From Kytococcus schroeteri (GTDB lineage Bacteria; Actinomycetota; Actinomycetes; Actinomycetales; Dermatophilaceae), in the NCBI RefSeq assembly GCF_002847825.1, contig NZ_PKIZ01000019.1, positions 1 to 31,098 on the forward strand: a stretch of 31,098 bases of DNA, written 5' to 3'. Under the pieces are notes generated by a model that ran no database searches, was not told the DNA's origin, and was given only the letters and a program-made list of their open reading frames with translations. Position numbers and translations under genes: made by a program. Positions 8,596-24,104 of the stretch are shown here, piece by piece (positions within the stretch are counted from its first letter, which is position 1; every line of letters begins with the position of its first letter).

Positions 8596-8624
8596 GGGGT
8601 GGGTGCAGAGGGTGCACCCACCCC
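8596..8624 (+). terminator. Hairpin after paaK
   Basis: A perfect 12-bp stem (GGGGTGGGTGCA, 8596-8607, with its complement at 8613-8624) closes a 5-nt GAGGG loop, 40 nt after the paaK stop. No U-tract follows. It is the strongest terminator-like hairpin in the window and separates the paa genes from the cyd genes. Confidence 0.65.
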
Positions 8625-8661
8625 GCTGCGATGTGGTGAGGTGGGCCTGTGCTACGGCGCA

Positions 8662-8681
8662 ACTACGAAGCGGCGTAGTAT
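8662..8681 (+). promoter_or_regulatory. Inverted repeat over -10-like box upstream of cydA
   Basis: ACTACG-N6-CGTAGT (8662-8679) overlaps a -10-like TAGTAT (8676-8681), about 80 nt before the cydA ATG. A further CTACG lies at 8652-8656. The ACTAC/GTAGT arms are the same as those of staphylococcal BlaI/MecI operators, although the gap between them is 8 rather than 4 nt. With a blaI-like gene downstream of cydDC, this is a candidate BlaI operator controlling cydABDC. That link is inference. Confidence 0.45.
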
Positions 8682-8759
8682 TTGATCGTCAACAGGTCGC
8701 TCGGAGATCCCGATCGCACCGGCCGACCCCTTGGGCCCACTACCTCTGCGGGAGCAGAC

Positions 8760-10196
8760 ATGGATGCACTCGAACTCGCCCGGTGGCAGTTCGGTATCAC
8801 CACCGTCTACCACTTCTTCTTCGTCCCCATCACCATCGGCCTGAGCTTCGTCGTCGCGCTCATGCAGACCCTCTGGATCCGCACGCGCCACGAGGACTGG
8901 CTCCGCCTCAGCAAGTTCTTCGGCAAGCTCTTCACCATCAACTTCGCGCTCGGCCTGGTCACCGGCATCGTGCAGGAGTTCCAGTTCGGCATGAACTGGT
9001 CGGACTACTCCCGCTTCGTCGGCGACATCTTCGGCGCCCCACTGGCCATCGAGGCCCTCCTGGCCTTCTTCCTGGAGTCGACCTTCCTCGGCCTGTGGCT
9101 CTTCGGCTGGGGACGCATCCCCGAGGCGCTGCACAACGCGGCCATCTGGCTGGTGCACATCGGCACCCTGCTGAGCGCCTACTTCATCCTGGCCGCCAAC
9201 TCGTTCATGCAGAACCCGGTGGGCTACCGCAACAACCCGGAGACCGGGCGCGCCGAGCTCGTGGACTTCTGGGCCGTGCTCACCAACCCGGTGCAGCTCG
9301 TGACCTTCCCCCACGTGGCCACGGCCGCCTACGCCACCGGCGCCGGCCTCGTGGTCGCCGTGGCCGTGTGGCACCTGTGGCGCAAGAAGTTCCCGGCCGA
9401 CGAGGGCATGTACCGCAAGGGCGCCCGCCTGGGCGCCTGGATCATGCTCGTCGCCTCGCTCGGCGTGGTCGTCACCGGCGACGTGCAGGGCAAGATCATG
9501 ACCGACGTGCAGCCCATGAAGATGGCCGCCGCCGAGGCCCTCTACGACACCGAGGACTCCTGCGCCTCCTTCTCGATCCTCACCATCGGCACCCCCGACG
9601 GCGAGCACGAGAAGTTCGCCATCACCGTGCCCTGCGTGCTGAGCTTCCTGGCCACCGGCGACGTCGACGGCAAGGTCGAGGGCATCAACCAGCTGCAGGA
9701 GGAGTACGCCAAGGTCTATGGCGGCTCCGGCGACCCGCTGCTGGAGGTCCGCGACTACCGGCCCAACATCATGGTGACCTACTGGTCCTTCCGCTACATG
9801 ATGGGCGCCGGAGCCCTGGGCATGCTCGCCGCGGCCGCCGTGCTGTGGGGCACCCGTGGCGGTCGCTCCCTCACCAGCCGCTGGTGGTACCCGGCCGCCC
9901 TGGCCGCCCTGTTCGGGCCGCTGCTGGGCAACAGCTTCGGCTGGATCTTCACCGAGATGGGCCGCCAGCCGTGGGTGGTGTTCGGCCTCATGAACACCGA
10001 GGACGGCGTGAGCCCCGGCGTGGGCGCCGCCGAGGTGCTCACCTCGATGGTCGTCTTCACCCTGCTCTACGGCGCGCTGGCCGTCATCGAGGTGAAGCTC
10101 ATGCTCCGCTACGCCTCCGCCGGCGCCGAGCACGCGGACGCCGGGAAGGCGCAGCGCATGACCGCCGACGACGAACCGCACGTGTTCGCCTACTGA
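8760..10196 (+). CDS. cydA: Cytochrome bd ubiquinol oxidase subunit I
   Basis: A 478-aa membrane subunit that carries haems b558, b595 and d and oxidises quinol while reducing O2 to water. The N-terminus WQFGITTVYHFFFVPIT contains the conserved haem-ligand His18. IEALLAFFLESTFLG carries the conserved glutamates equivalent to E. coli Glu99 and Glu107, and FPHVATAAYATG a further conserved His. The quinol-site motif GRQPW is at residues 401-405. The Q-loop region is short, as in actinobacterial and Firmicutes enzymes. The ATG at 8760 has GGGAG about 6 nt upstream and gives the canonical start; an in-frame upstream ATG at 8682 adds non-homologous residues. It is first in the cydA-cydB-cydDC operon, with a 32-nt gap to cydB. 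Confidence 0.97.
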   Translation: MDALELARWQFGITTVYHFFFVPITIGLSFVVALMQTLWIRTRHEDWLRLSKFFGKLFTINFALGLVTGIVQEFQFGMNWSDYSRFVGDIFGAPLAIEALLAFFLESTFLGLWLFGWGRIPEALHNAAIWLVHIGTLLSAYFILAANSFMQNPVGYRNNPETGRAELVDFWAVLTNPVQLVTFPHVATAAYATGAGLVVAVAVWHLWRKKFPADEGMYRKGARLGAWIMLVASLGVVVTGDVQGKIMTDVQPMKMAAAEALYDTEDSCASFSILTIGTPDGEHEKFAITVPCVLSFLATGDVDGKVEGINQLQEEYAKVYGGSGDPLLEVRDYRPNIMVTYWSFRYMMGAGALGMLAAAAVLWGTRGGRSLTSRWWYPAALAALFGPLLGNSFGWIFTEMGRQPWVVFGLMNTEDGVSPGVGAAEVLTSMVVFTLLYGALAVIEVKLMLRYASAGAEHADAGKAQRMTADDEPHVFAY

Positions 10197-10228
10197 GCCA
10201 CGAGACCTACGGGAGACACGGAATCGTC

Positions 10229-11338
10229 ATGGAACTGTCCATCATCTGGTTCGTCCTCATCGCCGTCCTGTGGATCGGCTACTTCGTCCTGGAGGGCTTC
10301 GACTACGGCGTGGGCATGCTCGTGCCCGTGCTGGGGCGCGATGCCGACCCGGCCACCGCGGAGCGCCGCCGGCGCACCGTCATCAACACCATCGGCCCGC
10401 ACTGGGACGGCAACGAGGTGTGGCTGCTGACCGCCGGTGGCGCCACCTTCGCGGCCTTCCCGCACTGGTACGCCACCCTGTTCAGCGGGTTCTACCTGCC
10501 GCTGCTGCTCATCCTCGTGGGCCTCATCCTGCGCGGCATGGCACTGGAGTACCGCCACAAGGAGGACTCCGGCACCTGGCGCTCGCGCTGGGACGTCGCC
10601 CTCGTGGTCGGCTCGTTCGTGCCGGCGCTGCTGTGGGGCGTGGCGTTCACCAACATCGTGGTGGGCGTGCCGATCGACGCCGACATGGAGTACACCGGCA
10701 CCCTGTGGACGCTGCTCAACCCGCTGGCGCTGCTGGGCGGCCTGGCCACGCTGACGGTCTTCCTCACCCACGGCGCGCTGTTCGTGGCGCTGAAGACCAC
10801 CGGCGACGTGCGGCACGACGCCCGCGGCATCGCCCTCAGGGTGGGGCTGGTGGCGGCCGTGCTCACCGTGGCCTGGACCGTGCTGGTGATGCTGCAGACC
10901 GGCAACACCGCCAGCTGGGTGCTGCTGGTGGCCGGTCTGCTGGCCTTCGTGGCCGCCCTGGCCCTGGTGGCCACGGCCCAGAAGCAGGGGCGCGACGCGG
11001 CGCACGAGGCCCTGGCCGGCCGGGAGAAGGGCGCCTTCTGGTGCAGCTTCCTGGCCATCGCCCTGGTGGTGGCCGCGCTGTTCACCGCCCTGTTCCCCGA
11101 CGTGATGCCGTCCACCACGGACGCGGCCTTCTCGCTCACGCACGAGAACGCCTCGGCCACGGACTACACGCTCGGCATCATGACCGTCGTGGCGCTGGTG
11201 CTCACCCCGGTGGTGCTGCTCTACCAGGGCTACACCTACTGGGTGTTCCGCAAGCGCATCAGCACCGCGAACATCCCCGACCCGAAGGCCTACGGCACCG
11301 AGGCCACCCGCCCCCTCGAGGGAGCCCACCGGGCCTGA
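10229..11338 (+). CDS. cydB: Cytochrome bd ubiquinol oxidase subunit II
   Basis: A 369-aa multi-spanning partner of CydA in the bd oxidase complex. The start MELSIIWFVLIAVLWIGYFVLEGFDYG is canonical for CydB, where the conserved EGFDYG turn follows the first helix. HWDGNEVWLLTAGG is the second diagnostic motif. About eight to nine hydrophobic helices follow, ending in a charged tail. The only SD-like sequence, GGGAG, lies about 13 nt upstream, a poor spacing, so translation may depend on coupling to cydA. cydDC starts 10 nt after its stop. Confidence 0.96.
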   Translation: MELSIIWFVLIAVLWIGYFVLEGFDYGVGMLVPVLGRDADPATAERRRRTVINTIGPHWDGNEVWLLTAGGATFAAFPHWYATLFSGFYLPLLLILVGLILRGMALEYRHKEDSGTWRSRWDVALVVGSFVPALLWGVAFTNIVVGVPIDADMEYTGTLWTLLNPLALLGGLATLTVFLTHGALFVALKTTGDVRHDARGIALRVGLVAAVLTVAWTVLVMLQTGNTASWVLLVAGLLAFVAALALVATAQKQGRDAAHEALAGREKGAFWCSFLAIALVVAALFTALFPDVMPSTTDAAFSLTHENASATDYTLGIMTVVALVLTPVVLLYQGYTYWVFRKRISTANIPDPKAYGTEATRPLEGAHRA

Positions 11339-11348
11339 GAATGACCCC

Positions 11349-14300
11349 GTGAAGCCCTTCGACCCGCGACTGCTGCGCCTCCTCCCCACCGCACGGAAGG
11401 AGGTCGCAGCAGTCGCGCTTCCCGTGGTGCTGCAGGGCGTGGTGGCCGTGCTGCAGGCGCTGGCCGTGGCGTGGCTGGCCACCTCGGTGGTGGCTGCGGC
11501 CTACCGGGGCGCCACCGGGCAGCCGGTGCCGCCCGGCATCGGGCCGGGGGTGGCCGCGCCGTCGCTGGGCCACCTGGGGCCGATGGGGGCGGGCACCGAC
11601 CTGCTCGTCCCCGCGCTGGCGGTGGCCGGGCTGCTGGCGGCACGCGGCCTGCTGGCCGGGTGGGTGCACCGCCGGGCGGCCGTGGCGGGGGCGCGGGTCA
11701 CCGGGGCGCTGCGCGAGGCCCTGGCCCGGCGGTGGCTGGACGGCGGGCCGGGGCGCTCGGCCACGCGGCTCACGGCCGGCGTGGGGCAGGTGGAGCCGTA
11801 CGTGGCCAGCTACCTGCCCTCGCTCGTGGCCGCGGGTGCGGTGCCGGTGCTGGTGGTGGCGGCGCTGGCGTGGGTGGACCTGTCCAGCGCCGTGGTGGTG
11901 CTGCTGACGCTGCCGCTGCTGCCGGTGTTCGCGGCCCTCATCGGGCAGGCCACGGCCGCCGAGACAGACCGCCGCTGGCGCGCCCTGGACGCCCTGGCCG
12001 GGCACTTCCTGGACGTGATGCGCGGGCTGCCCACGCTGGTGGCCCTGGGCCGGGCGGAGCGGCAGGTGCGCAGCATCGAGGAGGTGGGGCAGGCCCACCG
12101 GCGGGCCACGGTGCGCACGCTGCGCACGGCCTTCCTCACCACGGCGGCCATGGAGCTGCTCTCCACCATCTCGGTGGCCATCGTGGCCGTGTTCGTGGGG
12201 CTGCGGCTGGCGCACGGCGAGCTGGGTCTGATGGTGGGACTGGCCGCCATCCTGCTGGCGCCGGAGGCGTACTGGCCGGTGCGGCGCGTGGGGGCGGACT
12301 TCCACAGCGCGGCCGACGGGGCGCAGACGCTGGAGGAGGTGCTTCCGCTGCTCGAGGGGGACGCGGCCGGGCGCGCGCCGGCGGTCGGGGGTGCGCGCGA
12401 CGGCGTGCGGGCGGCGGGCGTGCGGTTTGCCCACGCACAGGGTCCCGCCATCGAGCTGCCGGACGGGTGGGGGCTGCCCGGGCGGGGGCTGGTGGCGGTC
12501 ACCGGTCCGTCGGGCTCGGGCAAGTCGACGCTGCTGTGGCTGCTGGCCGGGCTGCTGGACCCGGCGACCGGACGCGTGGAGGCACCGCGCACGCACCTGG
12601 TGACGCAGCGGCCCTTCCTGCCCCGCGGCGACGTGGAGGATGCGCTGCGACTGGTGCCGGCTGCTGCCGCGGCGCCGTGCGAGGAGCTGGCCGCCGTGCT
12701 GGATCGGGTGGGCCTGCTCGAGGTGGTGGAGGCGCTGCCGCAGGGGTGGTCCACGCCGCTCGGTGACGACGGGCAGGGGCTCTCCGCCGGCGAGCGCGCC
12801 CGGCTGGGGCTGGCCCGTGCGCTGCTCGACGACGCCCCGGTGCTGCTGCTCGACGAGCCGACCGCCCACCTCGACGCCGACACCGCCGCCGTGGTGCACC
12901 GCGTGCTGCGCGAGGAGTCCGCCCACCGGCTGGTGGTGGCCGTGACGCACCGCGACGCCCTGGCCGCGGTGGCCGACCTGCAGGTCCGCGTGGCCGACGG
13001 GCGCGTGGGCGCCCCCGTGGCCCAGGCGCCGGCGCCCCAGCCCGCCCCGCGCAGAGATCCGTCTGCGGTCCAGAGGTACGCCTCCCGGCCCGGACCTCTG
13101 GACCAGAACCGGACATCTGCGGGCGCGCAGGCCACGCCGGGCGCGCAGGCCGGCCCGTCCACACCCCCCGGCCGGCCCCGCATCGTGCGGCCGACGCCGC
13201 AGCTGTGGCGCGCCGCCCTCGTGGGGGCCCTGTCCTCGATGGCGGGCGTCGCCCTGACGGCCACGTCCGGCTGGCTCATCGTGCGGGCCTGGGAGCAGCC
13301 GATCGTCCTGCTGCTCATGGTGGCCATCGTGGGGGTGCGCACCTTCGGCATCGCCCGGCCGGTGCTGCGCTACGCCGAGCGCCTGGACAGCCACGACGTG
13401 GCCCTGGACCAGCTGGTGGGCCGCCGCGCGGAGACCTACCGCCGCCTCGTGCCGCTCACCCCCGCCCGCCTGGGCCAGCGTGGCCGCGCCCGGGTGCTCA
13501 CCGGGGTGGTGGCCGACCTCGACGACGTGGTGATGGCCACCGTCCGCTGGTGGGTGCCGACGGTGGGCGCCCTGGCCACGGGCCTCGTCGCCGCTGCCCT
13601 GCTGGCCGTGCCCTCCCCCGTGGTGGGGCTGCTCGTGGCCGCGCAGACCGGGCTGGTGGTGGCCGGCGCCGCGTGGGCGGAGCGCCGCACCGCCGGCACG
13701 CAGGCCGCCGAGCTGGCCGCCCGCGAGCGCACCTGGGAGGCCGCCCACACGCTGGCCGACCGCTGCGACGAGGTGCGCGCCGTGGGCGCCGGCCCCACCC
13801 TGCTGCGCGCCCTCACCGAGGCCGAGGCCGCCGTGGCCCGCCACGTGGGGCGCCGCGCCCTGGCGCAGGGGCTGGTGCGCGCCGGCAGCTGGGTGCTGGC
13901 GGGGCTGGTGGTGGCCGTGGCCGCGTGGGGGGCGCCGTCCACCGGGCTCGGCGGGCCGCTCACCGCGCTGCTCGTGCTCACCCCGCTGGCCCTGGCCGAC
14001 GTGCTGGCCGGCGTGCCCGATGCCGCGAGCGCCCACGCCCGTGCCCGGGTGGCCGCCGACCGTGTGGAGGCCCTGCTGGCGCAGGAGCCGGCCGTGGCGC
14101 AGGCGGGGGACGCGCCGGCGAGGACGACGCAGCCCGACCCAACGCAGCCCGACGCGGGCCGACCCGACCCCGCGCAGCCCGTCTCCGCCCGCCCGCACCT
14201 CCGTCTGGAGGGCCTCTCCGCCCGCTGGACCCCGCAGGCCGAGGAGACCCTCCGTGGCCTCGACCTGGACCTGCCGCCCGACCGCCGCATCGCCCTGACC

Positions 14301-14843
14301 GGTCCCAGCGGCTCCGGCAAGTCCACCGCCCTGGCCGTGCTGGCCCGCCACCTGGACCCCTCGGCCGGCCGCTCCACCCAGGACGGCCACGACGTGCTCG
14401 ACCTGCCCCTGGCCACCACCCGCGCCGCCGTGGCCTTCCAGGACGACTCGCCCCACGTGTTCGCCTCGTCGCTGCGCGAGAACCTGCGTGCCGCCCGCCC
14501 GGGTGCCGACGACGCCGTGCTCACCGACGCCCTGCAGCGCGCCGGGCTGGGCCCCTTCCTCGCCGACCTGCCCGACGGCCTGGACACGATGCTGGGCGCC
14601 GGCCACCGCGCGGTGAGCGGCGGCGAGCAGGCCCGCATCGGCCTGGCACGGGTGCTGCTGGGCGACCGGCCGGTGGTGCTGCTCGACGAGCCGGTGGCGC
14701 ACCTGGACGGGCCCACCGCGTCGGCCGTGATGGACGAGCTGGGCGCGGCCACCCGGGATCGCTCCGTGGTGCTGGTGAGCCACCGCGAGGAGGGCCGCGA
14801 CTGGTGCGACGCCACCGTGCGGCTCGAGCGCGCGGCCGGGTGA
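11349..14843 (+). CDS. cydDC: Fused CydD-CydC thiol-reductant ABC exporter
   Basis: A 1164-aa natural fusion of CydD and CydC, the heterodimeric ABC exporter required for bd oxidase assembly, exporting or handling cysteine/glutathione or haem-related thiols. Each half has an ABC transmembrane region followed by an ATPase: the first has Walker A GPSGSGKST at residue 386, signature LSAGERARLG and Walker B VLLLDEPTAHLD; the second has Walker A GPSGSGKST at residue 985, signature VSGGEQARIG and VVLLDEPVAHLD. Fused CydDC proteins are known in other actinomycetes. Start GTG 11349. The inter-half linker (about residues 555-615) is Ala/Pro/Gln-rich and holds a long inverted repeat. A second linker before the C-terminal ATPase has tandem QPDP-like units. 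Confidence 0.95.
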   Translation: MKPFDPRLLRLLPTARKEVAAVALPVVLQGVVAVLQALAVAWLATSVVAAAYRGATGQPVPPGIGPGVAAPSLGHLGPMGAGTDLLVPALAVAGLLAARGLLAGWVHRRAAVAGARVTGALREALARRWLDGGPGRSATRLTAGVGQVEPYVASYLPSLVAAGAVPVLVVAALAWVDLSSAVVVLLTLPLLPVFAALIGQATAAETDRRWRALDALAGHFLDVMRGLPTLVALGRAERQVRSIEEVGQAHRRATVRTLRTAFLTTAAMELLSTISVAIVAVFVGLRLAHGELGLMVGLAAILLAPEAYWPVRRVGADFHSAADGAQTLEEVLPLLEGDAAGRAPAVGGARDGVRAAGVRFAHAQGPAIELPDGWGLPGRGLVAVTGPSGSGKSTLLWLLAGLLDPATGRVEAPRTHLVTQRPFLPRGDVEDALRLVPAAAAAPCEELAAVLDRVGLLEVVEALPQGWSTPLGDDGQGLSAGERARLGLARALLDDAPVLLLDEPTAHLDADTAAVVHRVLREESAHRLVVAVTHRDALAAVADLQVRVADGRVGAPVAQAPAPQPAPRRDPSAVQRYASRPGPLDQNRTSAGAQATPGAQAGPSTPPGRPRIVRPTPQLWRAALVGALSSMAGVALTATSGWLIVRAWEQPIVLLLMVAIVGVRTFGIARPVLRYAERLDSHDVALDQLVGRRAETYRRLVPLTPARLGQRGRARVLTGVVADLDDVVMATVRWWVPTVGALATGLVAAALLAVPSPVVGLLVAAQTGLVVAGAAWAERRTAGTQAAELAARERTWEAAHTLADRCDEVRAVGAGPTLLRALTEAEAAVARHVGRRALAQGLVRAGSWVLAGLVVAVAAWGAPSTGLGGPLTALLVLTPLALADVLAGVPDAASAHARARVAADRVEALLAQEPAVAQAGDAPARTTQPDPTQPDAGRPDPAQPVSARPHLRLEGLSARWTPQAEETLRGLDLDLPPDRRIALTGPSGSGKSTALAVLARHLDPSAGRSTQDGHDVLDLPLATTRAAVAFQDDSPHVFASSLRENLRAARPGADDAVLTDALQRAGLGPFLADLPDGLDTMLGAGHRAVSGGEQARIGLARVLLGDRPVVLLDEPVAHLDGPTASAVMDELGAATRDRSVVLVSHREEGRDWCDATVRLERAAG
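13051..13120. repeat. REP/RPE-like imperfect inverted repeat in cydDC linker
   Basis: Two 27-nt arms (13051-13077 and 13094-13120) match at 21 of 27 positions as an inverted repeat around a 16-nt loop. The inner 11 bp (GGTCCAGAGGT with its complement) are perfect. The element lies in frame, encoding about residues 568-591, exactly in the disordered linker between the two fused transporter halves. This is the kind of place where palindromic repeat elements are tolerated in a coding gene. I found no second copy in the window, so its status as a dispersed repeat is unproven. Confidence 0.5.
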
Positions 14844-16358: not shown

Positions 16359-17651
16359 ATGGGCGAGTGGGGAGCACTGGAGTGGATCGTCGCCGTCGTG
16401 CTGCTGGCACTGGTGGTGGGGATCGTCTGGTTCATGACCCAGGGCGGGGCGGTCCAGGACCGCCTCTCGCGCCGGGGCGAGGACTACCCGGAGATCGACG
16501 AGCACGACAGGCTGGACGACTTCGGCCGGGACGCCGACGAGGACGAGCTCGAGGGGGGCGCCCGCCCGGCGGCCCGCCGCACCACGGCGTCCGCCCAGCC
16601 GGCGACGTCGGGCACGGCCGGCAGGCGCGGCAAGGGCACCCGGGCCGCCGCCACGGCCGGCACGTCCGGCGCGTCCGGCGCGGCTGCCGACGAGGTGGTG
16701 GGGCACGAGCCCACCGACCTGTTCGACCAGGACTCCGACGACGACACCCAGGTGGTGGACATCGCCGACCTGCCGGACACCGCCGACGGCGCGCACGCGC
16801 TGGGTGACGACGAGGCCGTCGAGCGCGACGAGGACAAGGACCGCGAGGCCGCCCCGGCCGCCGTGCACACCCTCGAGGACGAGGGCGACGAGTCCGACGC
16901 CACGACCGACTCCGAGACCGAGCTGCGCACCGTCGACGGCACGGACACCACCGTGCGCAGCACCACCGTGGACGAGCACACCGACGGCCCGCGCGACGCC
17001 GTGGTGCAGGACCCCGACGGCGCCCTGACCGATCTCGACCCGGACGACGAGATCACCGTGGCCGGCGAGCACGACCACGCCGCGGCCCCGCTGGCCGACA
17101 CCGACCCCGACGACGACCCGAGCGACATCGAGGCCGGCACCAGCACCGACCCGGGCGAGCTGCACAGCATCGAGGCCGAGGACGCCGACGACATCGAGTT
17201 CCCGGACTACCGCGAGCCCGGCACCGAGGACGCGCAGGACGAGGAGCTCACCGACTTCGTGGGCCCCGGCGGTGACGACGACACCCTGCCGGCCGACACC
17301 ACCGGTCAGGACGTGCCCACCACCGCCGGCGGCGACGACGACCTGGTCTCCGACGAGGACGACTGGGACGACGTGCAGCCCACCGACGAGCGCGAGGCCG
17401 TGGAGCCCGGCACCGTGGACGCCCCCGAGGCCGACTTCCCCGAGGACGACCAGCTGCCCGACGTGGCCCCGTCCACCTGGGGCACCGAGGACGACGCCGC
17501 CGAGGGCGAGGAGCCGGTCGCGGCCGACCCGGAGGACGCCTCCCCGGTGGTGGCCACCTCCACCCAGGAGTGGCTGGGCCGCGGCGAGCTGCCGGCCGGC
17601 ATGGACGCCGACGAGCTGGACCCGTACTCCGACTGGCAGGAGCGCCGCTGA
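16359..17651 (+). CDS. Membrane-anchored, highly acidic disordered protein, unknown function
   Basis: 430 aa. The ATG at 16359 has a strong GGAGG 7 nt upstream. Residues about 8-26 form one hydrophobic helix (WIVAVVLLALVVGIVWFM), followed by a short positively charged patch (RLSRRG). The rest has no globular pattern: about 30% of all residues are Asp or Glu (roughly 128 of 430), mixed with Ala, Thr, Pro and Gly. A basic Ala/Thr/Gly island at about residues 68-107 (RRTTASA, RRGKGTR) breaks the acidity. The C-terminus (WLGRGELPAGMDADELDPYSDWQERR region) is less repetitive and looks like a conserved tail. The likely topology is N-terminal anchor with a cytoplasmic acidic tail, by the positive-inside rule. 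I do not recognise a family. The gene stands alone between two hairpins. Confidence 0.85.
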   Translation: MGEWGALEWIVAVVLLALVVGIVWFMTQGGAVQDRLSRRGEDYPEIDEHDRLDDFGRDADEDELEGGARPAARRTTASAQPATSGTAGRRGKGTRAAATAGTSGASGAAADEVVGHEPTDLFDQDSDDDTQVVDIADLPDTADGAHALGDDEAVERDEDKDREAAPAAVHTLEDEGDESDATTDSETELRTVDGTDTTVRSTTVDEHTDGPRDAVVQDPDGALTDLDPDDEITVAGEHDHAAAPLADTDPDDDPSDIEAGTSTDPGELHSIEAEDADDIEFPDYREPGTEDAQDEELTDFVGPGGDDDTLPADTTGQDVPTTAGGDDDLVSDEDDWDDVQPTDEREAVEPGTVDAPEADFPEDDQLPDVAPSTWGTEDDAAEGEEPVAADPEDASPVVATSTQEWLGRGELPAGMDADELDPYSDWQERR

Positions 17652-19862: not shown

Positions 19863-20548
19863 GCCATGAGCCGCTCGTAGAAGGCGATGGCCGCCTCGGG
19901 CCGGTCATCGCAGACCACGCGCCCCTCGTCGAGCACGACGACGCGGTCGAAGCCCTCCAGTAGGTCCAGGTGGTGGGTCACCATGACCACCTGCTGCGGC
20001 AGGGCCATGAGCTCGGCACCGATGCGGCGGCGGTTGCGCAGGTCGAGCAGCGTGGTGGGCTCGTCGGCCACCAGCACACTCGGGCCGGCCATGAGCACGG
20101 CGGACAGCGCGAGCAGCTGCTTCTGCCCGCCGGAGAGCAGGTGACAGGGGTGGTCGGCGTGGCCCCGCAGCCCGGCGCGCTCGAGCGCGGCGTCCACCGC
20201 CTCGGCCCGCTGGGCGGCCGACCACCCGCGGTGCCGCGCGGAGAACTCGAGGTCCTCGCGCACCGTGGGCATGACCACCTGGTGGTCGGGGTCGCTGAAG
20301 AGGAAGCCCACCTCGCGGCGCACCCGGCGGGCGTGGCGGCGCACGTCGAGGCCGTTGACCTCCACCCGCCCGGTGGTGGGCCGCTCCAGCCCGATGACGC
20401 AGCGTGCCAGGGTGCTCTTGCCCGACCCATTGGCCCCGATGAGGGCGACGCGGTGCTCGGTGAGCTCCAGCGAGACGCCGTCCAGCGCCCGACGGCCCTG
20501 ACGGTCGAGGGTCACCCCCTCGAACCGGATGCCGCCGCCGGGGGCCAC
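19859..20548 (-). CDS. bioM: ECF transporter ATPase, biotin type (BioM)
   Basis: A 229-aa ABC ATPase that powers biotin import. It has Walker A GANGSGKST, Q-loop region LFSDPDHQVVMPTVREDL, signature LSGGQKQLLALSAVLM, Walker B VLVADEPTTLLD and the switch His in VTHHLD. FSDPDHQ is the Q-loop style typical of ECF ATPases (EcfA). The start is taken as GTG at 20548, 5 nt after the bioY stop; no SD is visible, so coupling to bioY is likely. An in-frame open stretch upstream overlaps bioY and is a shadow. Its stop overlaps the bioN start. Confidence 0.9.
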   Translation of the reverse strand: MAPGGGIRFEGVTLDRQGRRALDGVSLELTEHRVALIGANGSGKSTLARCVIGLERPTTGRVEVNGLDVRRHARRVRREVGFLFSDPDHQVVMPTVREDLEFSARHRGWSAAQRAEAVDAALERAGLRGHADHPCHLLSGGQKQLLALSAVLMAGPSVLVADEPTTLLDLRNRRRIGAELMALPQQVVMVTHHLDLLEGFDRVVVLDEGRVVCDDRPEAAIAFYERLMA

Positions 20549-20553
20549 GGGTG

Positions 20554-21216
20554 TCAGCGGCGCGCCGGGTCGGCCGGCAGCGAGCCGGGCAGGGCACGCG
20601 CCACGGCGGCGACCACCACGGCGGCCAGGGCGGCCTTGAGCAGGTCGCCGGGCACGAACACCGCGGCACCCAGCTGCCAGGCCTTGTCCCACGGCATGCC
20701 GGTGGCCAGCTTGAGCCACGGCACGCCCACGGCGTAGTTCAGCGGCACCCCGGCCAGGCCGGCCACGAACAGCCACAGCCCCACCATCCGGCCGCCGCGG
20801 CGCAGGGCCACGCGGGAGAGCAGGCCGATCACCACGGCGCCCAGCACGAAGCCCACGAGGTACCCGCCGGTCGGGCCGGTGAGCACCCCCAGGCCGCCCG
20901 CACCCCCGCTGGCCACGGGCAGTCCGATGGCGATGAGCGCCAGATACACCAGCACCGCGGCAGCGCCGGCCCAGGGGCCGAGCGCCAGCGCCGTCAGCGT
21001 CACGCCGAGGGTCTGCAGGGTCACCGGCACCTGCCCCCCGAAGAGCATCAGCCCCGGCACCACCGCCAGCGCCGCGATGAGGGCGGCGAACACCGCCACC
21101 TGCGCCCCGGTGCGCACGGTGGACTCGCCGCGCTCGTCGTCGCGGCCGTCACGGTCGTGGGGGGCGTTCCCGTGCAGCGCCTCGTCGGGCAGCAGCATGT
21201 CGGCCTGGGTGTTCAT
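20554..21216 (-). CDS. bioY: Biotin-binding S component BioY
   Basis: A 220-aa substrate-binding membrane subunit. After a hydrophilic N-terminal extension of about 38 residues rich in Asp/Arg/Glu, the sequence has six hydrophobic helices. The BioY hallmarks FGGQVPVTLQTLGVTL, GPTGGYLVGF and VPLNYAVGVPWL are present; these segments line the biotin site in known BioY structures. The ATG at 21216 has GGGAG about 5 nt upstream. It is first in bioY-bioM-bioN, divergent from the ATPase-like gene across 111 bp. Confidence 0.93.
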   Translation of the reverse strand: MNTQADMLLPDEALHGNAPHDRDGRDDERGESTVRTGAQVAVFAALIAALAVVPGLMLFGGQVPVTLQTLGVTLTALALGPWAGAAAVLVYLALIAIGLPVASGGAGGLGVLTGPTGGYLVGFVLGAVVIGLLSRVALRRGGRMVGLWLFVAGLAGVPLNYAVGVPWLKLATGMPWDKAWQLGAAVFVPGDLLKAALAAVVVAAVARALPGSLPADPARR

Positions 21217-21235
21217 GGGGTCTCCCGTCAGCGTG

Positions 21236-21262
21236 TGTGCGGGCGACATTCCATCACGCACA
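21236..21262. promoter_or_regulatory. Inverted repeat upstream of bioY
   Basis: TGTGCG (21236-21241) and CGCACA (21257-21262) form a perfect inverted repeat with a 15-nt gap, about 20 nt upstream of bioY. The spacing of the half-sites (21 bp centre to centre) would suit a dimeric repressor. It does not match a biotin-regulator consensus I can state with confidence. Confidence 0.25.
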
Positions 21263-21312
21263 GGCGGTCCCCGGCCCCCGCGCCCGGGACCCCGGCCGTC
21301 GCCCCGCCCCAG

Positions 21313-21318
21313 TACCGT
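21313..21318 (+). promoter_or_regulatory. -10-like box, leaderless start of P-type ATPase-like gene
   Basis: TACCGT lies 9 nt before the ATG at 21328, and no SD precedes that ATG. This fits a leaderless transcript starting at or next to the start codon. No -35 is evident. Confidence 0.3.
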
Positions 21319-21327
21319 TGCCCCATC

Positions 21328-23364
21328 ATGGCCACCTCCCCCGCACCCGCTCCCGAGGCCGGGACGACCCCCGCGACGACCCGCCGCATCGCGCCGGAGC
21401 CCGGGCCCACCCCCGGAGGCCGCGGCGTGTCCGCCCGTCGGGTGCGTACGGCCCTCCCGGCGCTGGCCCCGGTGCTGCTCACGGTGGCGGCGTGGACGTC
21501 CTCCGTGGCGGGTGGCCCCACGGCCCTGCTCGTGGCCTGCGCCCTGCTGGCCTGGTTCGCCGTGCGCCGCACCGCGGTCCGCGAGCTGCGCTCCTGGCGC
21601 TCCGTGCTCTGGCTGCCCGTCGTGGCCGCGGTGGTCTCGGCCGCCCACGCCGCCACCGAGGTGGCCGACGGCGGCCTCGGCACGCCCCTGGTGGCCACCA
21701 CCGCCGCCGCGGCGCTGGTGGGCCTCGTGCCGTGGCTGGTGCACCGGGCCCGCGCCGGTCTGGTGCTGCGCCTGCTGGCCGCCCGTCGCACGCTGGGGGT
21801 GGTGGCCACCCGCATCGTGGAGCGGGACGGCGCCCGCCGCCGCGTCCGCGTGCCCCGCGCGGCCCTGCGCCCCGGTGACGAGGTGCTCGTGCGCGCCGGC
21901 GAGGTGGTGCCCGCCGACCTGCGCGTGACCGACGGCGAGGGCATGGTCACCCTGGAGCGCCTCACCACCCGCGCCGACGCCCACCCCGTGGTGCCCGGCG
22001 ACGTGGTGGTGGCCGGTGCCGTGCCGCGCCGCAGCCTGGTGGGCACCGTGGTGCGCGCGGGCGACGACACCGCCATCGCCCGGGTGCTGCGCCCCGCCCT
22101 CGATGCCGTGCGCCCCACGCCGGGCCCGGTGCTGCCCGTACCCGCCGACCCGCACGGCTCGGCGCCCGGGGCGCCCACGCTGCCCATCCACCGCACCACC
22201 GACTCCGTGGCGCGCTGGGCGGTGCCGATCGTGCTGGCCGTGGCCCTGGTGGCCGGGCTGGCCCACGGCCTGCCGCACGGCGCGGCCGACGGCGCCCGCG
22301 TGGCCACCGCCGTGCTGCTGGCCGCCAGCCCCGCCGCCGCCCTCGTGGCCGTCACCAGCGCCTTGGGGGCCAGCCGCCTCCGCGGCGCCCTGCTGGGCCT
22401 GCGCATGAAGGGCACCCGCCCGCTGCGCTCGGCCCGCGACATCGACCTGGCCCTGGTGGACCCGTCCTCGGCCATCGCCACCGGCCACCCGCGCCTGGTG
22501 GAGGTGCTGCCCATGAAGGGCCTGGACCCCGACGCCGCCCTGCTGGCCGCGGTCTCCGTGGCGCAGGACGTGGACGGCCCCATCCCCCGCGCCCTGGCCA
22601 GCGCCGCCCGTGCCCGGAACATGACCCCGCGCGCCGTGAGCGGGCAGAGCGTGGCCGGTGGCCGCCTCTCGGCGCTCATCAAGGACATGGAGGTGACGGT
22701 GGGCGCCGAGGACGCGTTCGAGGCCGTGCCGCCCACCCTGCGCCCGGAGCCCGACGACGACGCGCTGGTGACCTACGTGGGCTGGGGTGGGCGCCCCACC
22801 GCGATGCTGCGCTTCCGCGACCGCCTGCGCCCCGGGGCCGCCGACGAGGTGCAGCGCCTGCTGCGCGCCGACGTGGTGCCCCACCTCATGTGCTCCGAGC
22901 CGGCCGCCGTCGCCCGCCGCATGGCCGACCGGGTGGGCGTGCACGCCTCGGAGGTGACCGGCGGGCTCGACGACGCCGGCCGCGTGGCCCTGGTGGCCGA
23001 GATGCTCGACGAGGGCCACCGGGTGGCGCTGCTGACCCGCGACACCCCCGACCCGGCGGCCGAGCAGGCCGACCTGGTGATCGCCTCCACCTGGTCGGAC
23101 GCGCACAACCGGGAGCTCGCCCAGGTGGAGACCGTGCGCCCGGAGATGGCCGCCATCGCCGATGCGGTGAGCCTCACCCGGCACACCGGCGCCGTGGTGG
23201 GTCAGAACGTGATGCTGGTGGCGGCCTACCACGCCATCGTGCTGGTGCCGGTGGTGGCCGGGTGGGTGGTGGCCCCCGCCGCGGCGCTGCTCTCGCTGGT
23301 GCCGCTGGCCGGTGTGCTGGCCGGCAGCCACCGCATCTCGTTGGGTACCGGCAGCGCCGTCTGA
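21328..23364 (+). CDS. Degenerate P1B-type ATPase-like protein (pseudo-ATPase)
   Basis: 678 aa with the layout of a P1B heavy-metal ATPase: four N-terminal hydrophobic helices (about 45-160), actuator-like domain (RPGDEVLVRAGEVVPADL, about 178-260), helices 5-6, a P/N-like region (370-595), and two C-terminal helices. All hallmark motifs are changed. TGE of the actuator is Thr213-Thr214-Arg215. The membrane CPC is Ser334-Pro335-Ala336. DKTGT is Asp378-Pro379-Ser380-Ser381-Ala382, keeping the Asp but losing the Lys and both Thr. The P1B HP motif is DGPIP, the TGD motif MCSE (521-524), and GDGxND is lost near Thr570-Pro574. The flanking ATGHPRLVEV and EQADLVIA segments fix the alignment. The frame is intact with normal codon use, so it is a maintained gene. 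ATP-driven transport is not expected. It is divergent from bioY. Confidence 0.8.
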   Translation: MATSPAPAPEAGTTPATTRRIAPEPGPTPGGRGVSARRVRTALPALAPVLLTVAAWTSSVAGGPTALLVACALLAWFAVRRTAVRELRSWRSVLWLPVVAAVVSAAHAATEVADGGLGTPLVATTAAAALVGLVPWLVHRARAGLVLRLLAARRTLGVVATRIVERDGARRRVRVPRAALRPGDEVLVRAGEVVPADLRVTDGEGMVTLERLTTRADAHPVVPGDVVVAGAVPRRSLVGTVVRAGDDTAIARVLRPALDAVRPTPGPVLPVPADPHGSAPGAPTLPIHRTTDSVARWAVPIVLAVALVAGLAHGLPHGAADGARVATAVLLAASPAAALVAVTSALGASRLRGALLGLRMKGTRPLRSARDIDLALVDPSSAIATGHPRLVEVLPMKGLDPDAALLAAVSVAQDVDGPIPRALASAARARNMTPRAVSGQSVAGGRLSALIKDMEVTVGAEDAFEAVPPTLRPEPDDDALVTYVGWGGRPTAMLRFRDRLRPGAADEVQRLLRADVVPHLMCSEPAAVARRMADRVGVHASEVTGGLDDAGRVALVAEMLDEGHRVALLTRDTPDPAAEQADLVIASTWSDAHNRELAQVETVRPEMAAIADAVSLTRHTGAVVGQNVMLVAAYHAIVLVPVVAGWVVAPAAALLSLVPLAGVLAGSHRISLGTGSAV

Positions 23365-23373
23365 GCGGGGGCC

Positions 23374-23778
23374 TCAGAGCCTCACCAGGGGCACGGTCAC
23401 GCACTCGCGGTGCGGCCCCGGTCCACTCCACCCGATCCCCGTGGCGGGGGCCTCGAAACCCGGCGCCTCCTGCAGCACGGTGCAGATGTCCGACGCGAGG
23501 TCACGCATCCGACCATGCACGACAGCAGCAGCGTCCAAGGGCGCCCGCCCTGGGTCAGTGACCGTTCGGGGGATCACGTTGGTCAGACCACACTCCGAGT
23601 AGCCGTACACCCCGGTCAGTCCGTGCCGCGTGTAGACGACCTGCAGGCAGTCCGCCAGCTCGTCGAGGCGGACGCGGAGGATGTCTATCTCCTCGGCCAG
23701 GTGCCGCTCGCGCACGAACGTCCGCAGGAACTCCAGCAGGACGTCGCGAGGGGTCAGCGGGCTAGCGTCACAGGCCAT
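23374..23778 (-). CDS. Hypothetical protein
   Basis: 134 aa, no family recognised. The N-terminal 55 residues look alpha-helical and amphipathic (PRDVLLEFLRTFVRERHL, EEIDILRVRLDELADC). The middle has a short Tyr/Gly/Thr-rich stretch, and the C-terminal third has no signal peptide or membrane helix. Third-codon GC appears lower than in its neighbours, which hints at more recent acquisition. The ATG at 23778 lies inside the end of the upstream small-membrane-protein gene (11-nt overlap), so the two are probably co-translated. It is convergent with the ATPase-like gene, 9 nt apart. Confidence 0.6.
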   Translation of the reverse strand: MACDASPLTPRDVLLEFLRTFVRERHLAEEIDILRVRLDELADCLQVVYTRHGLTGVYGYSECGLTNVIPRTVTDPGRAPLDAAAVVHGRMRDLASDICTVLQEAPGFEAPATGIGWSGPGPHRECVTVPLVRL

Positions 23779-24070
23779 CGCCGTCCTCGTCCTCCGCCGG
23801 CGGCTCCGCCCGGGAGATCACGCCCACCGCCCAGAGGACCGTGCCCCCGACGACCGCCGCCACCGACAGCACCAGCACCGCGTCACCCACCGGGCGCCAC
23901 CCGCCGTCGGCCAGGTCGAGCAGCGCGCAGACGAGCGCGACGACGGAGAAGGCGAGCAGCAGCCCCAGAGCCACCAAGCCGACCAACCACCAGGTGCGGC
24001 GCCCGCCGCCCCGGGGCGGGACGGCCCCCGGCACCACGGTCTCGTGTCCGTCCACGTCGGGGGTCTGCAC
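23768..24070 (-). CDS. Small two-helix membrane protein
   Basis: 100 aa starting at GTG 24070. Two hydrophobic helices (about residues 27-50 and 60-85) are separated by a short loop (DLADGGWRPVG). The N-terminal cytoplasmic-like segment is Pro/Gly/Arg-rich and the C-terminus is acidic (EPPAEDEDGDGL). No family is recognised. It starts 34 nt after the VOC-protein stop and overlaps the downstream hypothetical gene by 11 nt. A small membrane protein coupled to a small soluble protein may act together, but nothing in the sequence shows how. Confidence 0.6.
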   Translation of the reverse strand: MQTPDVDGHETVVPGAVPPRGGGRRTWWLVGLVALGLLLAFSVVALVCALLDLADGGWRPVGDAVLVLSVAAVVGGTVLWAVGVISRAEPPAEDEDGDGL

Positions 24071-24104
24071 GGTCTGCCCAGTCGAGTGCCGGGTGCGGGT
24101 CGGC

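Follow-up and report, generated by a model that had tools for sequence, protein, structure and literature searches.

Can a P-type ATPase lose all of its catalytic motifs and still be kept by selection as a protein? The question is raised by one gene in the window, a stretch of 31,098 nucleotides of Kytococcus schroeteri (contig NZ_PKIZ01000019.1, positions 1 to 31,098), the product of which resembles the heavy-metal P1B-type ATPases, with TGE, CPC, DKTGT, HP, TGD and GDGxND all substituted. An earlier note made from the DNA without database searches (the sequence-only reading) had proposed that it is a maintained pseudo-ATPase. The homology searches, alignments and simulations described here support this proposal and place it in a maintained pseudo-P1B-ATPase family, which has a homologous fold without the catalytic motifs and is intact and conserved among species. 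The loss of activity that would justify the term pseudoenzyme is something we infer from the sequence.

21328..23364, + strand: pseudo-P1B-ATPase gene, 678 aa plus stop (homology searches and model)

A full-length family with replaced motifs

Two protein searches were made, in each of which scoring was confined to the roughly 8,000 candidates that shared the most words with the query. The search with the full protein gave 46 proteins, namely the window protein itself (P0003), six relatives (P0004-P0009) and 39 distant P1B proteins with 25-42% identity. The six relatives represent six further 90%-clusters, are full-length and show 60-89% identity to the window protein; four of the six are named, and all four are from Kytococcus (K. 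sedentarius twice, K. aerolatus and Kytococcus sp. Marseille-QA3725). The search with the P/N region gave 18 proteins, the same seven and eleven others. No members beyond the seven were thus recovered in the two protein searches, which does not prove their absence elsewhere. A scan of viral contigs (27 stretches) gave no relatives, a plasmid scan gave no member among the matches listed (40 of 225 records) and no record spanning 80% of the query, and a scan of genome contigs gave only seven distant loci with 21-27% identity, none of them titled as an actinomycete.

The strings DKTGT, TGE, TGD and GDGxxD occur nowhere in the seven members or in the window's own translation. Among the six other clusters, no close orthologue with the motifs and no broken copy was found, although a protein database would hardly reveal the latter. 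Among the distant P1B proteins from both searches (P0010-P0059), DKTGT and GDGxND are present in 49/50, the exception being P0050, and another motif string is missing in some of the 49, such as TGE in P0015, P0018, P0034, P0047 and P0055. Six full-length clusters at 60-89% identity, all of them lacking the motifs, speak for a family rather than for a pseudogene of a single strain, which was the distinction on which the sequence-only reading had staked its proposal.

For the count of the motif columns, the seven family members were aligned with 40 P1B proteins out of the 50 distant ones, namely 39 that keep DKTGT and GDGxND, plus P0050. The replacements are as follows.

21964..21972, + strand: TGE replaced by T-T-R (residues 213-215); (T/S)(T/H/G)R in the family, Arg215 in 7/7
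22327..22335, + strand: CPC metal site replaced by S-P-A (residues 334-336); 7/7
22459..22473, + strand: DKTGT replaced by D-P-S-S-A (residues 378-382); DPSS(A/G) in the family, Asp378 kept in 7/7
22576..22581, + strand: nucleotide-pocket HP replaced by G-P (residues 417-418); 7/7
22891..22899, + strand: TGD replaced by C-S-E (residues 522-524); C(A/S)E in the family
22981..22983, + strand: HAD-motif Lys replaced by Arg552; 7/7
23035..23052, + strand: GDGxND replaced by T-R-D-T-P-D (residues 570-575); (T/A)R(D/A)(T/G)(P/R)D in the family, Arg571 and Asp575 in 7/7, with a possible one-residue offset in the column alignment
23227..23232, + strand: M5 Tyr-Asn of most Cu pumps replaced by Tyr634-His635; 7/7

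The non-canonical residues are conserved at the same positions in the relatives, as a family of pseudo-ATPases had been expected to show, with Arg215, SPA, GP, Arg552 and Arg571 in 7/7. The claim that every catalytic motif has been replaced is correct for all six motifs, including the residues named, but too sweeping for the single residues, since Asp378 and Asp575 are kept and some of the replacements are mild (D of TGD to E, K to R, T to S). The charge is reversed at two invariant sites: Arg215 stands in place of the Glu of TGE, and Arg571 in place of the leading Asp of GDGxND, a residue that contributes to Mg2+ binding in active pumps. The nucleotide-pocket Gly-x-Gly is not constant among the seven members, the sole Cys among the invariant columns is Cys522, and no invariant Cys or Met was found in the eight membrane helices across the seven members. 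The family fails every sequence test that was made for membership among the active pumps (DKTGT, TGE, CPx in M4, HP in the N domain, and the hinge motifs TGD and GDGxND). With the motifs and the Asn of M5 replaced, no invariant Cys or Met in the membrane and a variable Gly-x-Gly, copper transport and ATP use by the Kytococcus protein appear unlikely.

It is the homologues, and not the openness of the frame, that provide the strong evidence for the gene. The sequence-only reading had argued for selection from an intact frame and a base usage matching that of the neighbours. The match is real (third-position G+C of 0.971, and 0.959-0.983 in eight neighbours), but the argument built on it is weak, since the window has 74% G+C and the opposite strand over 21328-23364 is also open, with a 925-aa frame.

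Selection against neutral decay

Neutral evolution was simulated with point changes only and no indels along the family tree for seven lineages in 600 runs. With the unscaled branch lengths of the tree, 0/600 runs were stop-free and 144 +/- 10 columns were invariant; these runs were too divergent, with an identity to the most distant lineage of 0.45-0.50 in three runs inspected, as compared to 0.60 observed. When the simulation was scaled by 0.6 to the observed identities, all seven lineages were stop-free in 1/600 runs, and scales of 0.5 and 0.7 gave 4/600 and 0/600 stop-free runs. The spread of invariance between 50-residue blocks was 0.70 in the family and at most 0.44 in the simulations, showing that conservation is far patchier than under neutrality.

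Neutral drift thus fits the data badly, since stop-free outcomes were rare and the observed block spread lies beyond the simulated range, which makes decay by drift unlikely, and the maintenance by selection proposed in the sequence-only reading agrees with the simulation. The loss of every catalytic motif might by itself have suggested a functionless gene in decay. Such a pseudogene is scarcely credible for a protein that is full-length in 7/7 clusters down to 60% identity, with near-fully conserved blocks beyond those of the neutral simulation.

Domain layout and predicted fold

Pfam recognized only the A domain (PF00122, residues 163-259, E 2.6e-13) and no HMA metal-binding domain in the protein. 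The NCBIfam model for heavy-metal P1B pumps matched with E 5.9e-41, yet the score of 141 bits lies far below the cut-off of 346. Copper ATPases in the PDB match by sequence, 3rfu being the top hit (E 5.5e-20, residues 124-663). By descent and fold the protein belongs with the P1B pumps, with eight membrane helices and with the A, P and N domains arranged as in other P1B proteins.

21778..22107, + strand: actuator (A) domain, residues 151-260 approximate (PF00122 163-259, model strands 159-243)
22378..22527, + strand: pseudo-phosphorylation (P) domain, first part, residues 351-400; most conserved block, 36/50 invariant
22528..22782, + strand: N domain, residues 401-485 approximate (model and alignment)
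22783..23145, + strand: pseudo-phosphorylation (P) domain, second part, residues 486-606 approximate (model and alignment)

A model built with canonical pumps in the alignment has a complete A/P/N architecture with a predicted local distance difference test (pLDDT) score of 89.9, which is what the sequence-only reading had expected of a structure prediction. The fold of the protein is thus predicted to have been kept.

Origin among copper pumps

The strongest active-type match of the P/N-region search was P0049 (E 2.7e-24). Its relatives (the best 120 of 7,996) are Cu-ATPases, the names given being mostly Ornithinimicrobium, Serinicoccus, Ornithinicoccus and Arsenicicoccus, and all six motif patterns used are present in 118 of these 120. 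The two exceptions are P0158, which is chimeric-looking, and P0178, an otherwise active-looking Ornithinimicrobium P1B-ATPase from a metagenome assembly with GDGVSD instead of GDGxND.

A profile of the seven members scored 204.5 bits against the P0049 set and 118.4 bits against the best of the 49 other pumps, in a comparison pool that is uneven (120 vs 49). The N-domain profile likewise gave 64.0 bits for the P0049 set as compared to 28.9 for the others. By profile score, the nearest active relatives are the Cu-ATPases of Ornithinimicrobium-like Micrococcales, and an origin of the family from a copper pump (P1B-1) seems likely.

Shift of constraint toward the P domain

How the constraint is distributed was examined in a single comparison of the seven family members with seven active-type pumps of the P0049 set, which we picked from several genera for similar divergence (0.65-0.83 identity to P0049 for the pumps, 0.60-0.89 to the window protein for the family). 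Mean pairwise identity in the family and the pumps, respectively, was 0.42 vs 0.59 in MA/MB, 0.55 vs 0.81 in M1/M2, 0.67 vs 0.78 in M3/M4 and 0.79 vs 0.79 in M5/M6. It was 0.75 vs 0.72 in the A domain and 0.72 vs 0.62 in the N domain, and the two parts of the P domain reached 0.90 and 0.86 as compared to 0.76 and 0.74 in the pumps. Constraint has become looser along most of the ion path and tighter in what was the phosphorylation domain, and it is chiefly on account of this shift that we propose a docking surface on the P domain.

An unusually conserved P domain might also be expected of a regulatory subunit that tunes metal export by an active P1B-ATPase of the same cell, through hetero-oligomers or competition for a chaperone. 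Pseudoenzymes are able to regulate active paralogues, as in the activation by a dead paralogue that is described in the accessible part of one paper (PMC5201418). However, no active Kytococcus P1B is named among the best 120 of 7,996 P0049 relatives, most of which are nameless or have an incomplete name, and the parts that would face a chaperone are lost or loose, with no HMA domain found by Pfam and an identity of 0.55 in M1/M2. We regard a regulatory subunit as rather unlikely.

A proposed non-transporting membrane platform

The explanation that we favor, with a confidence that is evenly balanced between belief and doubt, is that the protein is a pseudo-pump at the level of the genus, a former P1B-1 ATPase that may now be a non-transporting membrane platform with a P domain that binds a partner or a ligand. 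The ancestor would have been a P1B-1 (Cu+) ATPase, probably of the type found in Ornithinimicrobium-like Micrococcales. The metal-binding N-terminal domain, the transmembrane copper site and the phosphorylation chemistry would have been lost while the whole fold was retained, and the altered pump would then have been kept by selection in Kytococcus. The protein would most likely serve as a non-cycling membrane anchor, the cytosolic pseudo-P domain of which would be the working surface that docks a partner protein or ligand. The arginines that replace the Glu of TGE and the leading Asp of GDGxND could form pairs with Asp378 and thereby lock the head in one state. Homology, the loss of the motifs, conservation and the shift of constraint are shown and the fold is modelled, and we infer the absence of pumping, the docking role and the arginine lock alike; the best reading of the P domain would be that of a docking or regulatory platform. 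The roles put forward in the sequence-only reading, a membrane scaffold, a metal or ligand sensor or a partner of a real ATPase, are candidates that the present results do not tell apart.

Several of our own results weigh against this proposal. Two catalytic acids have been retained and are invariant in 7/7, namely Asp378 at the acceptor position and D575 at the end of GDGxND. The number of invariant columns, 292 as compared to 258 +/- 12 (maximum 305) in the matched neutral simulation, is only in modest excess because overall identity was matched, and it is weak evidence for which the uneven block spread is the better substitute. The model built from the seven family members alone is poor (pLDDT 52.8), so the good model rests on the 40 other P1B rows in its alignment. 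With regard to origin, the A-domain profile scored higher for the other pumps (36.6 bits) than for the P0049 set (28.8 bits). In a tree of 49 rows (7 from the family, 14 of the 120 and 28 of the 49 others), the best topology does not place the family inside the copper clade; its branch, about 3.5 changes per column long, attaches near the base, and a grouping with the Ornithinimicrobium-type pumps was not rejected by the approximately unbiased (AU) test (AU p 0.124).

The replaced sites themselves are not exceptionally conserved either. Of 46 columns with at least 90% conservation in the 39 active-type pumps, 13 are kept, 15 have switched and are invariant, and 18 are variable. The switched and invariant columns amount to 15/33 of those changed (45%), close to the protein-wide 292/678 (43%), which gives no indication of a new catalytic site where the former one was.

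Neighbouring genes

20554..21216, - strand: BioY biotin S component, divergent neighbour (PF02632, E 1.3e-38 on 20554-21231; the start at 21216 is our reading)
21217..21327, no strand: divergent intergenic region, 111 bp if the BioY start is 21216

The divergent biotin importer noted in the sequence-only reading is real, as judged by PF02632, and behind BioY on the minus strand Pfam identified a CbiQ-like (BioN-like) gene and an ABC ATPase (BioM-like) gene. The divergent BioY gene and a common upstream region of about 110 bp might suggest a role in biotin uptake, in which the pseudo-P1B protein would be a membrane partner of the importer. Divergent placement is weak on its own, and energy-coupling factor (ECF) biotin importers are not known to need such a component. 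We consider this role very improbable, and the importer is so far only a neighbour of the pseudo-P1B gene.

A scan for promoters and terminators in 20400-24100 found nothing. TACCGT stands 9 nt upstream of the ATG, and a ribosome-binding site is not apparent (21313-21330), which would fit a leaderless transcript. Other neighbours typed by Pfam are adenylosuccinate lyase, glyoxalase-like, SpoU methylase, HAD hydrolase, seryl-tRNA synthetase and diacylglycerol-kinase-like genes. No Pfam match was obtained for the nearby frames 16359-17651 (+), 23374-23778 (-) and 23768-24070 (-), of which the convergent 134-aa frame at 23374-23778 has a third-position G+C of 0.852, below that of the other genes measured. 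Further away, at 8603-14843 (+), cytochrome bd oxidase subunit II (PF02322) lies inside a 911-aa frame. The next frame, of 1164 aa, looks like a fusion of two ABC half-transporters, and we take it to be a fused CydDC.

Parallels and significance

The closest known systems are the P1B-1 (Cu+) ATPases of the CopA/CtpB type (7r0g, 3rfu; P0049, P0060-P0178), from which the Kytococcus protein differs in that no HMA domain was found, CPC is SPA, the Asn of M5 is His and all catalytic motifs are replaced. Another P1B descendant, P0050 (a Joint Genome Institute (JGI) protein of 583 aa labelled as a P-type Cu+ transporter), has DRAGT for DKTGT, TAD for TGD and no GDGxND. Unlike the Kytococcus family, it keeps CPC and HP, has lost most of its A domain and groups with the active-type P0053, and it is thus apparently a second, separate loss of motifs.

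The nearest parallel that we have met is human TMEM94/ERMA, the activity of which is disputed. The two proteins share a P-type head with a membrane part, an Asp at the acceptor place, the absence of TGE(S) and a replaced GDGxND (PMC12134183; PMC13322241). TMEM94/ERMA has ten helices, is structurally most like SPCA and is not a metal P1B pump. It keeps the Lys of DKxG, which is Pro in the Kytococcus protein, and with the GDGxND Asp changed to Arg as well, the Kytococcus protein lies further from the motifs. A letter on the cryo-electron microscopy of TMEM94 found neither ATPase activity nor Mg2+ binding and described six near-identical structures (PMC12134183), whereas the accessible part of a later paper reports ATP-dependent Mg2+ uptake by ERMA despite DKQGI, GSSANL and no TGES (PMC13322241). 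Because of this dispute, sequence alone is unable to settle whether a protein of this kind is inactive.

By analogy, the Kytococcus protein might pump or flip a substrate by a non-canonical chemistry such as that claimed for ERMA, where the reported transport was lost in D427N (PMC13322241, accessible part). One could see mild substitutes in Asp378, Asp575, Ser380, Glu524 and Arg552, and the letter on TMEM94 reported micromolar binding of AMPPCP and did not rule out autoinhibition (PMC12134183). However, Pro stands for the Lys of DKTGT and Arg for both the Glu of TGE and the first Asp of GDGxND, HP is GP, the glycines of the nucleotide pocket are variable and the transmembrane set of Cys and Met ligands is gone. 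In our view, an unconventional pump is decidedly improbable.

Pseudokinases and pseudophosphatases are the subject of a separate literature. P-type pseudo-ATPases, which the sequence-only reading had called little described, indeed seem hardly to be discussed in the open-licence literature, with TMEM94/ERMA as the one, disputed candidate. No open-licence paper was found to pair "pseudo-ATPase" or "pseudoenzyme" with "P-type ATPase", in a search that left subscription journals mostly outside, and further literature searches gave no title on a pseudo-P-type pump among those listed. Pseudo-pumps were not the subject of the 12 passages inspected, of 21 that matched, in a review on P-type ATPases (PMC10654040), and copper, ATPase, biotin, cation transport and metal are not mentioned in the main text of the K. 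sedentarius genome paper (PMC3035214).

With a small family in which all six motifs have been replaced, it can be tested cleanly whether the P-type fold is able to persist for a role other than pumping. It also cautions against the annotation of metal export from overall similarity, as illustrated by the family member P0005, which carries the database name "Copper-transporting P-type ATPase". If the favored explanation is true, a bacterial genus would have converted a P1B-ATPase that exported copper into a membrane platform dedicated to something other than transport.
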